Assembly: GCA_017513445.1 (NCBI GenBank)
Contig: JAFXFS010000013.1
Coordinates: 124,001-188,000, forward strand
Direction of reading: 5' to 3'
Length of the DNA: 64,000 nucleotides
From: Bacteroidales bacterium
GTDB taxonomy: Bacteria > Bacteroidota > Bacteroidia > Bacteroidales > UBA932
A program made the position numbers and the translations under genes. The notes beneath the pieces are model-generated. The model was given only the letters and a program-made list of their open reading frames with translations, searched no databases and had not been told where the DNA came from. Shown in pieces: positions 2,006 to 13,297 of this stretch (its first letter is position 1; every line of letters begins with the position of its first letter).

Positions 2006-3097
2006 CTATTTTGGTGCCATTCTGTATAGCACTGCGGCAACAATGGCAAATAGGATATTTGGCATCCATAGAGCAATTTCAGGGGGTAATGCTCCAGTAT
2101 GGACAAACATTTCGCTGAATTTCATAAAGAGAATATATGTAAAGCTCAATGCTATACCGATACCAATGTTTAGTCCGATACCACCCCTGCGCTTTTTAGA
2201 GCTGAGGGCAACACCAATAATGGTTAATATGAAAGCAGAGAACGGCATTGCCAAGCGTGAATTCTTCTCAATCAGAGCATATTTAACCATATCATCACCT
2301 CTCATCTTCTGCATCGCAATAAGTTCATCCAAGTCTTTTTGAGGCAGAGATTCCACTACATTCCTTCTACGGTAGAAGTCATCAAGAGTGAGGGAAATCA
2401 CTGTGTCAATCTGTTTCTTGAATGAAACTTTTTCGGAAGCACCGATGTACTCTCTAATCACGCAATTCTTAAGCTCCCACCCATTAAAAGTAGTATCCCA
2501 AGCAGCTACTTCAGCAGTTAATTTCTTTGTAATACGGTTATTCTCAATATCTTCCAGTGTAAACTTGTATGCAGTATTATTCCACGAACTAAAACTCTCT
2601 ACATAGACAAAATTACCTGGAGAGAGTTGATAGTGAATGTTCTTTGATGAGTTGTAATAGTTGGTACCTTTTACATATTGCTGTTCAAAATCGAGCCGCT
2701 CCTTATTCGCAGGTGGAATAATATAGAGACCTAAAATAAATGTGAAGATGGCAATAAGAAGAGCAGAGATCATATACGGTCGCATCAGACGCCCGAAGCT
2801 CATACCTCCGGAGAGCATTGCAATTATCTCACTATTTCCAGCCAATTTAGATGTAATAAAAATAACCGTAATGAATACAAATATTGGACTGAATGTATTT
2901 AGAATATATGGAATAAAATTGGCGTAGTAATCAAATACAATAGCTCTCAATGGCGCCTCTTTCTCCACAAATTTGTCGATTTTCTCACTGATATCGAATA
3001 TGATGACAATACCTATGATAAGGATAAGAGAGACCAGATAGGTCCCTATAAACTTCTTGATAATATACTTATCGAGTATTTTTCCTGGCAGTCTCAT
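2006..3097 (-). CDS. LptF/LptG family permease (YjgP/YjgQ)
   Basis: LptF and LptG are the inner-membrane halves of the LptB2FG transporter that extracts lipopolysaccharide and hands it to the periplasmic bridge. This 363-residue protein has the standard length and layout: about three membrane helices at the N terminus (residues 15-125), a periplasmic beta-jellyroll region, and about three helices at the C terminus (from about 275). The conserved coupling-helix region EIIAMLSGGMSFGRLMRP is present. It begins 3 bases after the tgt stop codon, so the two are co-transcribed. A second family member lies at 6236-8665; I cannot say which corresponds to LptF and which to LptG. Confidence 0.92.
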   Translation of the reverse strand: MRLPGKILDKYIIKKFIGTYLVSLILIIGIVIIFDISEKIDKFVEKEAPLRAIVFDYYANFIPYILNTFSPIFVFITVIFITSKLAGNSEIIAMLSGGMSFGRLMRPYMISALLIAIFTFILGLYIIPPANKERLDFEQQYVKGTNYYNSSKNIHYQLSPGNFVYVESFSSWNNTAYKFTLEDIENNRITKKLTAEVAAWDTTFNGWELKNCVIREYIGASEKVSFKKQIDTVISLTLDDFYRRRNVVESLPQKDLDELIAMQKMRGDDMVKYALIEKNSRLAMPFSAFILTIIGVALSSKKRRGGIGLNIGIGIALSFTYILFMKFSEMFVHTGALPPEIALWMPNILFAIVAAVLYRMAPK

Positions 3098-6235: not shown

Positions 6236-8665
6236 TTATTGAAAAATAAAATTCTCAATATCTCTTGCACCTGCAAGAAAGGCAGAACTTTCCATTCTCT
6301 TTTTACCTGATGCCTGTAATTCGGTGATTCTGTAATACCCTTCAGAACAAGCTACAATCAAGTTTTTCTTGCCATCAGTGATAATAGTTCCAGGAGTTGT
6401 TTCAGCAGTGATTTTCTCTTGAAGATTTTGAGGGAGCGTATCCTTTGTCAATACCTCTCCGGCAAAGATTTTAACCTCTACTTCGCTACCTTCAGAAGAC
6501 ATCGTGCTAAGTGCTGCAGGATATGGAGATAGACCTCTGACGTGGCACCAAACCTCTTTAGCACTCTTATTCCAGGATATTGTACGATTCTCTCTATTTA
6601 GTTTAGGTGCAGGAAGAGGTGGATCATCAGGATCAATTACCTGAGGAGTAGCTGCATATCTGTCAGTTACCAATGCTTCTATTGTTTGAAGAACCAAGCC
6701 TGCTCCAATCGGCATCATCTTATCGTGAAGAGTTTCAAATGTGTCACTATTTTCAATTAAACACTCTTTTGTAAATAGGATATTGCCGGTATCTATATTT
6801 TCATCAATTAAGAATGTGGTCAATCCGGTAATTCTGTGACCATTTATGATGGCCCAGTTGATAGGGGCAGCACCTCTGTATTGAGGAAGTAGAGATGCGT
6901 GCAGATTGAATGTGCCAAGTTTTGGAAGAGACCAAACCTCCTTAGGCAACATTCTGAATGCAACTACAACAAAGATATCTGCATCAATATCCTTCAGTTG
7001 TTGTATGAATTCAGGATCTTTAAGACTAACCGGTTGTAGTAGAGGTAGTTTATGTTCTGTTGCATACTTCTTGACAGCACTCTCATTTATCTTCAAGCCT
7101 CTTCCTGAGGCCTTATCCGGTACAGTTACAACTGTCGATACAGTATAACCTTTCTTATAAATTGCATCCAAGATTGAGACTGCAAATTCTGGAGTACCCA
7201 TAAATGCAATCTTCACCTTCTTTCGTTTTCTTCTATCTAATAAATCTTTCATCCAAGCTTTTATTGCTTTAAAAATTACTGTTGGGTTAAAAATTGCTGA
7301 ATCCTTTGTTGATGTCCAAGTTAGAAATGCACCGATAGGCATCAAAACGAATGATGAGATAAATGTTCCCATAAATGGAGACATTGAGCCATCTCTCGCC
7401 AATTTCTTACCACTGATATCTACTACCCAATATGCAGCAAAGAATAGTATTGATATAATTACAGGAATACCAAGTCCACCCTTTCTGATAATAGCACCAA
7501 GAGGGGCACCGATAAAGAAGAATATCAGACAGGCAAGAGAGAGTGTGAATTTTCTAAAGCTCTCAATAACATTTCTTCTAATAGGATCAACATACCTGAA
7601 CTCATTTCTCTCAAACCCTTCAAGAAGACGGATTGCCTCATCTGTTGCATTTCTCGCGTCGTGCATAGCCATACTCTTGCTTCTCGCACTAAAGTATTTT
7701 GGTTTGAGTGAATCAACAGGCATTACACCCTTGAAAGAACGACTTCTCTCTTCATCAAACTGGAATGAGAATTGGAGTCCCAAAGAGAATTTTGCTCTGC
7801 GAAGTTGTTCCTCATCTTCGGCTGCCATTTTTATAGTTAAAGAGTCTCGGTCAACTTTCAACTGCGACAAGTTTTTTGCCATAACTTGGTCATCAAATCG
7901 TCCCTCTTCTGAACGAGAAAAAGCATAGTTTTCAAGAGGGACAATGAGTTCCTGCTCTCTAAAGTCTATTCTTTGCAGAGATAAAGTTGTATCTCTATAT
8001 ACTAACTTATTGGATTCTACATAGTTACAGCCGTTATAAAGAGTGAAAACCATATTCTTTTGGTCGGCTGAAAGTCGCATCAAACTTGAATCCGCAATTG
8101 TAAGATTGTTGTTTCCTGTTGTTGATGTGTGGTCATAAACCATCACGTCATACATCATACCAGTCTCTTTATTCTCTGTATCTACTCTGATAATATAACC
8201 ATCAATACCATCATAGAAGATGCCGGTTGGAATCTTAATCTCATCCTTTGTCTTGTTGATGTCATATTGAAGGGTGTAGATATTCTTGTAAGCAACAGGT
8301 ATAAGGTTATTTGAGACGAAAAATGCACCTACGCTTATAAGTAATGCAATGGCAATTAGAGGTGTCAGAATTCTTCCAAGTGAAATTCCCGCAGCTTTCA
8401 TAGCAAGAAGTTCATTGTTTTCACCCATTCCACCCAAAGTCATAATGGAAGCCAAAAGTGTGGCTAACGGGAGGGCGTTTGGCATAAGTGTCGCTGCGCC
8501 CCAACCCATAAATTCCAAAATAACTCCAAAGCTTAGACCTTTTCCAACCAATTCGTCGATATAGAGCCACAAGAATTGTAATACCAATACAAACATTACG
8601 ACCAAGAAGGTCATAATAAATGGTCCAATGAATGATTTAATTATGAATCGGTCTAGTCTTTTCAT
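6236..8665 (-). CDS. LptG-type permease fused to methionyl-tRNA formyltransferase
   Basis: One uninterrupted 809-codon frame encodes two unrelated enzymes. Residues 1 to about 470 are a YjgP/YjgQ permease: N-terminal helices, the coupling segment ENNELLAMKAAGISLGRIL, a long soluble insert (about residues 140-370) and three C-terminal helices. Residues from about 484 to 809 are a complete methionyl-tRNA formyltransferase. It has VKIAFMGTPEFAV at the start, the catalytic triad N587, H589 and D625 (FNLHAS and ENIDTG) and SLLPQYRGAAPINW. The join is a basic linker, LLDRRKRKK. No stop codon separates them. V484 is a GTG exactly where Fmt normally starts, and M472 is an upstream ATG, so internal initiation is possible. 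LptG C termini face the cytoplasm, so a fused Fmt would be on the correct side. alaS ends 5 bases upstream. Confidence 0.88.
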   Translation of the reverse strand: MKRLDRFIIKSFIGPFIMTFLVVMFVLVLQFLWLYIDELVGKGLSFGVILEFMGWGAATLMPNALPLATLLASIMTLGGMGENNELLAMKAAGISLGRILTPLIAIALLISVGAFFVSNNLIPVAYKNIYTLQYDINKTKDEIKIPTGIFYDGIDGYIIRVDTENKETGMMYDVMVYDHTSTTGNNNLTIADSSLMRLSADQKNMVFTLYNGCNYVESNKLVYRDTTLSLQRIDFREQELIVPLENYAFSRSEEGRFDDQVMAKNLSQLKVDRDSLTIKMAAEDEEQLRRAKFSLGLQFSFQFDEERSRSFKGVMPVDSLKPKYFSARSKSMAMHDARNATDEAIRLLEGFERNEFRYVDPIRRNVIESFRKFTLSLACLIFFFIGAPLGAIIRKGGLGIPVIISILFFAAYWVVDISGKKLARDGSMSPFMGTFISSFVLMPIGAFLTWTSTKDSAIFNPTVIFKAIKAWMKDLLDRRKRKKVKIAFMGTPEFAVSILDAIYKKGYTVSTVVTVPDKASGRGLKINESAVKKYATEHKLPLLQPVSLKDPEFIQQLKDIDADIFVVVAFRMLPKEVWSLPKLGTFNLHASLLPQYRGAAPINWAIINGHRITGLTTFLIDENIDTGNILFTKECLIENSDTFETLHDKMMPIGAGLVLQTIEALVTDRYAATPQVIDPDDPPLPAPKLNRENRTISWNKSAKEVWCHVRGLSPYPAALSTMSSEGSEVEVKIFAGEVLTKDTLPQNLQEKITAETTPGTIITDGKKNLIVACSEGYYRITELQASGKKRMESSAFLAGARDIENFIFQ

Positions 8666-8670
8666 CTAAA

Positions 8671-11286
8671 CTATTTAGTAGCCATTTTAATAAGTAACTC
8701 CATTGCTTCAGATAGGCCGTCAGGGTTCTTTCCACCTGCAGTAGCAAGATAGTTCTGTCCGCCGCCACCTCCTTGGATGAATTTTGAAGCTTCACGGATA
8801 TCCTTTGATGCATTGAAGCCATTCTTAATCAAAGAATCTGTGTACATCAATGTCAAGCAGGCCTTTCCGTCTGGGGTTGTATATGCTGCAATAAACGAGC
8901 CAACTTCAACCTCTTTGTATAACATAAAGGCGATGTTTTTCATTGTCTCACCATCACTTACGCCTCTGAATGTGTAGATATCAAGGCCATTGATAGTAGT
9001 TTTATTGCTAATAATTTTCTCTTTAAGCTCTATTGTGTGCTTGCGAGCTGCCTCTTCAAGAGCTTTTTTAGCTGCCTCATTCTCCTGAATCATCTTCTGG
9101 ATACTTGCAATAACATTAGGGGTGTTATTAAAGCAGGATTTGATAGTGTTTAATGTATCCTCTGCAGTGTCAACAAGATTTTCAGCATAGCTTCCTGTTA
9201 CAGCTTCAATTCTTCTTACACCTGCGGCTACCGCTGATTCTGAAACAATTTTAAGAAGACCAATATCACCAGTTGCTCCTGTATGAGTACCACCACAAAG
9301 TTCTATAGAGTCGCCAAATTTGATAACTCTCACATAATCTCCATACTTTTCTCCGAATAGAGCTGTAGCACCCAGGGCTTTTGCTTCTTCAATAGCCATA
9401 CTGCGATGCTCCTCTCTTACAAAGTTCTCGCGAATCAATTTGTTTACAAGTTTTTCAACTTTTTTCAGATTTTCAGGAGTAATCTTCTCAAAATGAGAGA
9501 AGTCAAAGCGGAAATATGCATTACTTACATAAGAACCTTTTTGCTCAATATGTGATCCTAAAACCTCTCTAAGTGCGTGATGAAGAAGGTGAGTCGCAGT
9601 GTGATTTCTTGCAATCTCTCTTCTTCTTTCAACATCTACATAGGCCTTGTAACTGCTTTCAGTATCAAGAGGAAGTCTGTCTGCAATGTGGATAGAGAGA
9701 TTATTCTCCTTTATTGTGCCAAGAATCATAATCTTCTCACCCTTTTCAGTAATGATGTGTCCGGTATCACCAATTTGTCCACCACTCTCGGCATAGAAAG
9801 GAGTCTTGTCAAATACAATCTGATATGCCTCTTTGCCTTTAGACTTGACAGTTCTATACTTGGCAATCTTAATATCTTCAGCCAATGAATCATATCCAAC
9901 AAAATCTTCTTGAGGAAGTTCTTCAATTACAACCCAGTCTCCTGCCTCTTTAGCAGTTGCACTTCTGGCGCGCTCTTTCTGTTTGTTTAATTCCTCTTCA
10001 AAACCCTTAAAATCAATAGAATAGCCATTCTCTCTGGCGATAAGTTCACTCAAATCGATTGGGAATCCAAAAGTGTCGTAAAGCGTAAAGGCGTCACTTC
10101 CAGAGATAACTTTGCTCTCCTCTGATTTTTTCATAATCTGATTCATAAGGATAATACCCTTATCCAAAGTTCTCAAGAATGCCTCTTCCTCATTTTTAAC
10201 AACATCTTCAATCAATTTTTGTTGTTTTGCAATTTCTGGGTATGATTCGCCCATCTCTTCTACCAACTTAGCTACAAGTTTGCAAAGGAATGGCTCTTTA
10301 AGATCAAGGAAAGTGTAACCATATCTTACAGCTCTTCTTAAAATTCTGCGAATTACATAGCCGGCTTTAACATTTGAAGGAAGTTGACCATCAGCAATAG
10401 AGAAACTTATTGCGCGGATGTGGTCAGCGATAACTCTGATTGCGATACCCACCTCATTATCAGGAGTATATGGTTTGCCACAAAGTTCAGAAATTTTAGT
10501 AATCATACCTGTAAATACATCGGTATCATAATTACTTTTCTTGTTCTGTAGAGCCATACAAAGTCTTTCAAAACCCATTCCTGTATCAACGTGTTTTTGA
10601 GGGAGTGGTTCCAAAGAACCATTGGCTTTGCGATTGAATTGCATAAATACAAGGTTCCAAATCTCAATTACAAGGTGATGTCCTTTGTTGACCATCTCTG
10701 CTCCACTTACCTCTGCGCGTTCTTTGTCATCGCGAAGGTCGATATGAATCTCGCTACAAGGGCCACAAGGGCCTGTATCTCCCATTTCCCAGAAGTTATC
10801 CTTCTTGTTACCCAAGATAATGTGATCTTCCGGCAAATATTTTAACCATAAATTTTTGGCTTCACTGTCCATCTCAAGGTTGTCGTCTGCATAACCCTCA
10901 AAGACAGTAGCATATAATCTATCTTTATCCAATTTATATACTTCGGTAAGAAGTTCCCAAGCCCACTCAATCGCCTCTTTCTTGAAATAATCTCCAAAAC
11001 TCCAGTTACCAAGCATTTCAAACATTGTGTGGTGATATGTATCGTGTCCAACCTCTTCAAGGTCGTTATGTTTTCCACTGACTCTCAAACACTTTTGCGT
11101 ATCTGCTACTCTATGATATTTGGCAGGATTATTGCCTAAGAACCAATCTTTGAATTGATTCATACCGGCATTGGTAAACATCAAGGTAGGATCGTTTTTT
11201 ACAACCATTGGCGCAGATGGCACAATTGTGTGAGATTTTGACTCAAAAAAGTCCAAAAAGGTCTTTCTAATATCTTTAGCTTTCAT
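8671..11286 (-). CDS. alaS: Alanyl-tRNA synthetase
   Basis: AlaS charges tRNA-Ala and edits mischarged Ser and Gly. The product is 871 residues from the ATG at 11286, close to the family's usual length (876 in E. coli). A longer TTG-initiated reading (11310) adds eight residues not expected in the family and is rejected. Domains in order are the class II catalytic core ([13 protein letters not shown] near residue 45), the editing domain with zinc ligands in [11 protein letters not shown] and [12 protein letters not shown], and the C-Ala domain with the glycine run [15 protein letters not shown]. The downstream permease-Fmt gene starts 5 bases after the stop, coupling two tRNA-Met/Ala functions in one unit. 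Confidence 0.97.
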
Positions 11287-11307
11287 ACTCTTAAAATAGT
11301 TTGGTTG

Positions 11308-11343
11308 CAAAATTAGTTTTTTTATTCAAAATTATTATATTTG
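11308..11343. promoter_or_regulatory. Divergent -7 elements for alaS and the M23 operon
   Basis: On the minus strand TAATTTTG reads at 11315-11308, 22 bases upstream of the alaS ATG, and again at 11334-11327. On the plus strand TATATTTG lies at 11336-11343, 28 bases upstream of the M23 start. No convincing -33 TTTG was found at the right spacing for any of them, so this rests on the -7 element and the divergent gene layout. Confidence 0.4.
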
Positions 11344-11371: not shown

Positions 11372-12334
11372 ATGGCTCGAGAAAAATTGTATAAATTCAA
11401 CAAAAATACCCTCACTTACGAGGCTTGTACCCCAACAAGAAGGGAGAAAATTGTGAGATGGGCTATTTTTCTTGCTTGTGGTCTGCTAGTATCTTCGGGT
11501 TATTTCTACTTATATCATAATGTCTTCAGATTAGAGACACCAAAGATGCTTCTACTCTCTGAAAAGAATGGAGAGTTACTCTCAAAAATGGAGCTGCTAA
11601 ATCAGAGAATGGAGAATAAAAATCGTGTTCTCACAGAGCTTCAATTGAGAGACAATGTTATTTACCGCTCAATTTTCGGTATGGAGGAGATTCCTCAAGA
11701 GGTAAGAAATGCCGGTTATGGTGGTGTTAACAGATATGAGAAATTCAAATCTTTCTATAATGCAGAATTGCTGGCATCATCTGCAATGAAGATGGATGTT
11801 CTGACTAAAAAGGCATACATTCAATCTAAATCATTTGACGATATTGAGGTTCTTTCTAAGCGCGCAGGCGATATGGCATCCTGTATTCCAACTCTTTTCC
11901 CTGTTTCTACAGATAAGAGGAATAGAATTACAAGTGCGTTCGGATATCGTTTAGACCCATTCAGAGGCGCTTCAACAATGCATAGAGGTGTTGATATTGC
12001 AGGCCCAAGTGGTGAACCAATCTATGTAACTGGTGATGGTGTTGTTGAAGAGGTGGGTTATAATTTCTTCGGTTATGGTAACTTTGTTATTGTTGATCAC
12101 GGCTTCGGATATAAGACTCGATATGCTCATATCAAGAGTTCGAATGTTGCTGAAGGTCAGATAGTTCGCAGAGGAGATCAAATCGCAGAGATGGGAAATA
12201 CTGGTCGTTCCAGTGGTACTCACTTGCATTATGAAGTAATCTATAAATCACGTCCTATCAATCCTTGGAACTTCTTTAACAATAAGATGGATCCGAAGGA
12301 GTATGCAACATTGGTTAAACCGAAACAAAAGTAG
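11372..12334 (+). CDS. M23 family metallopeptidase (first of a tandem pair)
   Basis: The 320-residue protein is an LytM-type peptidoglycan endopeptidase anchored in the inner membrane. A transmembrane helix lies at about residues 25-47, a coiled coil at about 60-90, and the catalytic domain at about 190-300. Zinc ligands are complete: H204 and D208 in MHRGVDIAG and H286 in HLHYE (H284 is the catalytic partner). A complete active site suggests a working hydrolase rather than an EnvC/NlpD-like activator. A second, similarly built gene starts 9 bases after its stop. The role in wall growth or division is inferred. Confidence 0.9.
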   Translation: MAREKLYKFNKNTLTYEACTPTRREKIVRWAIFLACGLLVSSGYFYLYHNVFRLETPKMLLLSEKNGELLSKMELLNQRMENKNRVLTELQLRDNVIYRSIFGMEEIPQEVRNAGYGGVNRYEKFKSFYNAELLASSAMKMDVLTKKAYIQSKSFDDIEVLSKRAGDMASCIPTLFPVSTDKRNRITSAFGYRLDPFRGASTMHRGVDIAGPSGEPIYVTGDGVVEEVGYNFFGYGNFVIVDHGFGYKTRYAHIKSSNVAEGQIVRRGDQIAEMGNTGRSSGTHLHYEVIYKSRPINPWNFFNNKMDPKEYATLVKPKQK

Positions 12335-12343
12335 GAGGTGCCA

Positions 12344-13297
12344 ATGACAAAGTTTGTATTTGATAGGGAAAAGTTGAAATTTCAAGAGCATAAACGTTCC
12401 CCTAAAGAGATTCTGCTTACTATTTTAAAATACTTTTTGTTGTCAATAGTGGTGGCATTCTTATTCTATGTGGTAATAGCACTACTTATTGATACTGAGC
12501 GTGAAAGGAGATTAAAAGCAGAGAATCGTTATCTTGAGCAGGAGTATGCAAAGATGGAGGAGAAGATGGATATGCTTGATAATGCGATATCCAATCTGGA
12601 GTTGAGAGATCAGGCGATATATCAAGATATATTTAATGCTATGCCACCTGATTATCTGCCAGAAGAGACGGTGACTGATTATGGTCAGCTGGATACAATT
12701 AAGGATAAAGCGTTGGTAATCAGCACTTTTGATAAGAGTTGTGAGCTTGTTGAAGTATCTAAAAATATCTCAAAAGATATAGATGATATAATTACATTAT
12801 TTTCAAATATGGGAGATAGTGTAAAGAGGATTCCTTCACTTATTCCAGTTAATAATTTCAATAGCGCACAGACTGGTGCATCTCTGGGAATGAAGGTAAA
12901 TCCCTTTTATAAGACCATCAAGATGCATACGGGTATAGACCTATTAGTTCCGGTGGGGACAGAGGTTATTGCTACGGCTACAGGCATTGTCGAGAAGGTA
13001 ACTCGTTCAAAAAAAGATAAGGGGAATAGCATCCTTATTAACCACGGGAATGGTTATAAGACTATGTATGCCCACTTGAATGACATTTTGGTAAGACAGG
13101 GACAATCTGTTAAACAGGGTGTGAGAATAGGGCGATCTGGAAATACAGGTGTATCGTTTGCCCCGCACCTCCATTATGAGGTAATTAAAGATAGTATAAG
13201 TCAAGATCCTATACCATACTTCTTCGGAAGTCTAACTACATCGGAGTATAGAGAGATGATGATAATTGCAAGTAATACAGGACAATCATTAGATTAA
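12344..13297 (+). CDS. M23 family metallopeptidase (second of a tandem pair)
   Basis: The protein has the same plan as its neighbour: a membrane helix near residues 25-50, a coiled coil near 55-90, and a C-terminal peptidase domain. The zinc ligands are H195 and D199 in MHTGIDLLVP and H277 in HLHYE, so the site is complete. I place the start at ATG 12344 because AGGAGG at 12333-12338 ends five bases before it; an in-frame GTG at 12338 overlaps that ribosome-binding site. The length is then 317 residues. The pair probably arose by duplication, but the proteins have diverged widely outside the catalytic core. The merR-type gene follows after 4 bases. Confidence 0.9.
   Translation: MTKFVFDREKLKFQEHKRSPKEILLTILKYFLLSIVVAFLFYVVIALLIDTERERRLKAENRYLEQEYAKMEEKMDMLDNAISNLELRDQAIYQDIFNAMPPDYLPEETVTDYGQLDTIKDKALVISTFDKSCELVEVSKNISKDIDDIITLFSNMGDSVKRIPSLIPVNNFNSAQTGASLGMKVNPFYKTIKMHTGIDLLVPVGTEVIATATGIVEKVTRSKKDKGNSILINHGNGYKTMYAHLNDILVRQGQSVKQGVRIGRSGNTGVSFAPHLHYEVIKDSISQDPIPYFFGSLTTSEYREMMIIASNTGQSLD

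Follow-up and report, generated by a model that had tools for sequence, protein, structure and literature searches.

The fused gene and its neighbourhood

The window, i.e., the whole analysed stretch of 64,000 nucleotides from a Bacteroidales genome, contains an lptF-fmt fusion gene at 6236–8665 (minus strand), which reads without interruption through 809 codons, beginning with ATG and ending with TAA. The encoded protein carries the Pfam domains of an LptF/LptG permease (LptF_LptG, residues 6–450, E = 1e-66) and of methionyl-tRNA formyltransferase (Fmt; Formyl_trans_N, residues 485–651, E = 6e-36; Formyl_trans_C, residues 688–800, E = 5e-22), confirming the original prediction that a permease and a complete Fmt are read without a stop between them. 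Directly upstream and separated by a gap of 5 nt lies alaS (8671–11310, minus strand), and the order alaS-lptF-fmt is conserved. An AlphaFold2 model of the fusion (20 fused sequences) has a mean pLDDT of 80 and a pTM of 0.44, the mutual placing of the two halves being unreliable.

Further features of the window include a GSCFA-family protein (PF08885; 4292–5149), encoded between tgt and an NAD-dependent epimerase, and two neighbouring frames on the plus strand (11372–13297), the C-terminal parts of which resemble M23-type peptidases by eye.

Permease half and LPS-export partners

The lipopolysaccharide (LPS) exporter LptB2FG has two permease subunits, LptF and LptG. The permease domain of the fusion (residues 6–450; 7316–8650, minus strand) belongs to the LptF/LptG family, as indicated by PF03739 (225.7 bits, cut-off 27.9) and by sequence matches to LptF/LptG entries of the PDB (solved LptB2FG structures include 6MIT and 7EFO). 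The half had originally been taken for an LptG-type permease; however, it scores higher with the LptF model (TIGR04407, 138 bits) than with the LptG model (97 bits), both values being below the respective cut-offs (230 and 240 bits), while the order is reversed for a separate permease adjoining tgt (2006–3097, minus strand; LptG 185 vs LptF 138 bits). Judged by these scores, the permease half is LptF-like rather than LptG-like, though divergent from LptF of known LptB2FG systems and differing from it in bearing a whole enzyme at its C-terminus. A search of the window genome with PF03739 retrieved exactly two LptF/G permeases, i.e., the fusion and the LptG-type protein. LptB is likewise encoded (363 bits, cut-off 240), so that both partners known from the LptB2FG setting are present.

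LptF frames that extend about 150–200 residues beyond the permease domain occur in several other Bacteroidales. Such frames of 630–680 codons were found in genomes G007, G019, G020, G037, G050, G053, G055, G057 and G059; the tail of another long LptF (L028:1501–3405, genome G006) has no Pfam match after residue 453.

Formyltransferase half

Fmt formylates the tRNA with which the synthesis of every protein begins. The Fmt domain of the fusion (residues 485–801; 6263–7213, minus strand) scores above the cut-off of the equivalog model TIGR00460 (233.9 vs 201.5 bits), and its predicted structure superimposes on solved Fmt structures with TM values of 0.86–0.91, the closest solved structures all being Fmt. 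It shares about 35 % sequence identity with the latter and has in common with them (e.g., 1FMT, 2FMT, 4IQF) both domains, the catalytic triad and the GRG loop. The triad (6791–6907, minus strand), predicted to be intact, is present as N587 (6905–6907), H589 (6899–6901) and D625 (6791–6793), and is invariant across 20 aligned fused proteins, as is the loop G521-R522-G523; all 20 match TIGR00460 as well as TIGR04407. The fused half differs from ordinary Fmt in that it has no conserved start codon of its own and in that its N-terminus continues from a membrane permease.

In the window genome (99.15 % complete), TIGR00460 detects a single Fmt, namely the fusion; a 206-residue frame with a weak match to this model was rejected as a second Fmt. 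Since there is no other Fmt and there are exactly two LptF/G permeases, the fusion represents the genome's only LptF-like permease and its only Fmt. One peptide deformylase is also encoded. Given the sole copy and the presence of deformylase and LptB, the genome apparently uses both LPS export and formylation, each by way of the fusion gene.

Distribution among relatives

As initially proposed, relatives were searched for fusions spanning the join, covering first 60 relatives and next 300 genomes sampled from the GTDB family UBA932, a group of uncultured gut bacteria (Cryptobacteroides, Coprenecus and relatives), nearly all genomes compared being metagenome assemblies. The same join is present in an open frame in at least 145 of the 300 family genomes, originating from many independent assemblies; this number corresponds to 150 rows among the matches listed, eight of them partial, minus five in which a stop codon interrupts the join (G069, G136, G196, G208 and G264). 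Fused open frames in the family comprise about 800–890 codons. The lptF-fmt fusion is thus a genuine and fixed gene fusion, and the notion of an assembly or sequencing artefact, to which the draft state of the window genome (19 contigs) might lend itself, can be dismissed in view of these at least 145 genomes; 28 named records among them come from different studies and different hosts.

Every locus read is fused in g1, g4, g6, g15, g16, g17 and g23 and consists of adjacent separate genes in g5, g10, g11, g12, g14, g18, g19 and g22; both forms occur in g3 and g24. Candidatus Cryptobacteroides and Candidatus Coprenecus are among the fused records that carry a name, both being placed in the GTDB family UBA932 by their naming paper (PMC8035907).

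Outside the UBA932 family, no such fusion was found in nearly 300 genomes of the order and phylum, and among the matches listed from these samples no frame outside family f1 exceeded 523 residues. Fmt itself was detected in 154 of the 157 genomes sampled from the order, which cover 116 families, and in 152 of the 153 sampled from the phylum. An apparent independent fusion in another family (G049), first listed as a long frame, proved to be two separate genes upon reading of the DNA. In a plasmid collection, no match spanned both the permease and the Fmt halves.

Linker and possible internal starts

The two halves are connected by a basic linker (residues 461–483; 7217–7285, minus strand), which contains the originally described stretch LLDRRKRKK (residues 475–483). 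According to the AlphaFold2 model it forms a single helix (461–483) leading directly into the first strand of Fmt (485–490), the confidence there being moderate to low (block means 54–60 at residues 461–480). Among fused genes, 40 to 79 residues separate the end of the last helix from the MGTPEF motif of Fmt. Across 19 close pairs, 298 of 503 nucleotide differences in the linker (59 %) fall on third codon positions; this excess indicates that the linker evolves as a translated and constrained coding sequence.

One frame could nevertheless yield two proteins, if the long chain served as LptF and initiation within it (at the GTG of V484, at M472 or at an ATG at codon −11) provided free Fmt. Codons for such starts do exist in the window: M472 is encoded by ATG, and a GTG (V484; 7214–7216, minus strand) had been predicted to sit at the expected Fmt start. 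The latter codon is there, but lies at codon −5 relative to MGTPEF, whereas the separate fmt genes of relatives mostly start at codons −6 to −12. The DNA of the join was read in 69 fused and 26 separate loci. GTG at codon −5 occurs in 5 of the 69 fused genes and is thus not conserved. An ATG is found within codons −14 to −3 in 32 of them. In the Cryptobacteroides branch it mostly occupies codon −11 and may be left over from the former fmt start; however, it is missing in several members of this very branch (L046, L067, L069, L073 and L110). No ATG, GTG or TTG at all is present within codons −14 to −3 in 26 of the 69 fused genes (38 %), not far from the 45 % that codon use would give by chance. 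With V484 unconserved and 26 fused genes lacking a nearby start codon, internal initiation is not the general route; this view is strengthened by the linker holding the frame and being constrained as protein. The original alternative of two proteins made by internal initiation is therefore not supported as a general mechanism and is improbable overall, although it may apply to single lineages, including that of the window.

Somewhat less probable still is that the full chain is made and subsequently cut by a protease in the linker, releasing LptF and Fmt. The basic, variable and weakly predicted nature of the linker could render it accessible, but the alignment of fused proteins reveals no conserved cleavage motif, and there is no other pointer to processing.

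A different assignment would have the formyltransferase half modify LPS or lipid A instead of Met-tRNA, in analogy to ArnA, in which a formyltransferase of the same fold is likewise part of an LPS-connected fusion. Such an activity would make sense on an LPS exporter, and the half shares superfamily and kind of triad with ArnA, including a weak match to the ArnA model (140.5 bits vs a cut-off of 777). ArnA, however, acts on a UDP-sugar with a dehydrogenase partner, while here the Fmt domain is joined to an LPS export permease and Pfam finds no dehydrogenase half. The score above the Fmt equivalog cut-off, the status as the genome's only Fmt, the retained C-terminal Fmt domain, the structural matches, the presence of deformylase and the fact that the separate gene at this place in relatives is Fmt jointly render the ArnA-like assignment very unlikely.

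Gene order and history of the join

alaS is located directly upstream of lptF at 67 of 69 fused and at 21 of 26 separate loci; alaS-lptF-fmt is therefore the common arrangement in the family. In other genera of the UBA932 family, order and strand match those of the fused loci, but lptF and fmt are separate genes which either overlap or stand a few tens of bases apart, with a stop codon in between. Related genomes with two genes and a stop had been named in advance as evidence against the fusion. They were indeed found in other genera, but they represent the ancestral state of the family, a cluster of separate alaS, lptF and fmt genes, rather than a sign of error. A distance of 1.2–3.7 kb separates lptF from the following fmt in six relatives that are more distant or branch off early. 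In unfused relatives of the Coprenecus branch (L015, L016, L019 and L086), the closest start codon for fmt falls within the final part of lptF, giving an overlap of about 30 bases; this is a likely step before fusion.

A mixture-model tree built from both halves (48 rows) requires four changes of the fused state, three of which are forced by well-supported branches. With at least three changes of state, the join must have been gained repeatedly or lost, the counting of changes as such not separating gains from losses. Grouping every fused gene but L105, the lone fused member of g24, into one clade was rejected (AU test, p = 0.0005), and still so when L008 was also left out, while the branch of the window and the Cryptobacteroides branch are compatible with forming one clade (p = 0.45). 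The phylogeny suggests more than one origin of the join. The fused L105 stands beside the unfused L027 of the same genus, which is most simply explained by a separate gain. In g3, L008 and L021 likewise show fused and separate states within one genus, pairs of this kind being well suited to distinguishing gain from loss.

Proposed origin and function

The reading preferred here, to which we assign a probability of about 80 %, is that of an operon-born fusion which yields a membrane-tethered Fmt with two independent activities. With lptF and fmt adjoining behind alaS, in places overlapping or split by one in-frame stop, the two genes would have been joined when this stop was lost or a small frameshift occurred. 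In LptB2FG, the C-terminus of LptF is cytoplasmic, i.e., on the side where Fmt works, so that the fusion needs no change in topology; the join would be tolerated because of this location of the tail and because the first strand of Fmt can bear an extension at its N-terminus. Fmt as a C-terminal tail after the last transmembrane helix is hence topologically sensible. The full-length chain would reside in the inner membrane together with LptG and LptB, its Fmt domain formylating Met-tRNA while tethered at the membrane, and the permease and formyltransferase activities would otherwise be independent of each other. Cleavage or internal initiation could still free Fmt, and may do so in single lineages.

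One may speculate that tethering is itself functional, with formylation of the initiator tRNA held at the LPS export complex and selection having made the fusion recur. Possible roles would be to couple envelope assembly to translation initiation or to serve membrane-bound ribosomes. We regard this extension as doubtful: selection would account for the repeated origin and long retention, and a ratchet, in which splitting becomes hard because the old start codon was lost, would do so equally well.

A full-text search, with most subscription journals outside its reach, yielded no earlier description of an LptF-Fmt fusion, and we know of none. The permease and Fmt families are both known; it is their combination that is new. 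LPS export and translation initiation, housekeeping functions unrelated to each other, both depend on a single gene in this large group of gut bacteria, and annotation assigning one function per gene would miss one of the two in many genomes. Since the family comprises fused as well as unfused species, it offers a natural experiment on whether fusions born from operons are adaptive or neutral.
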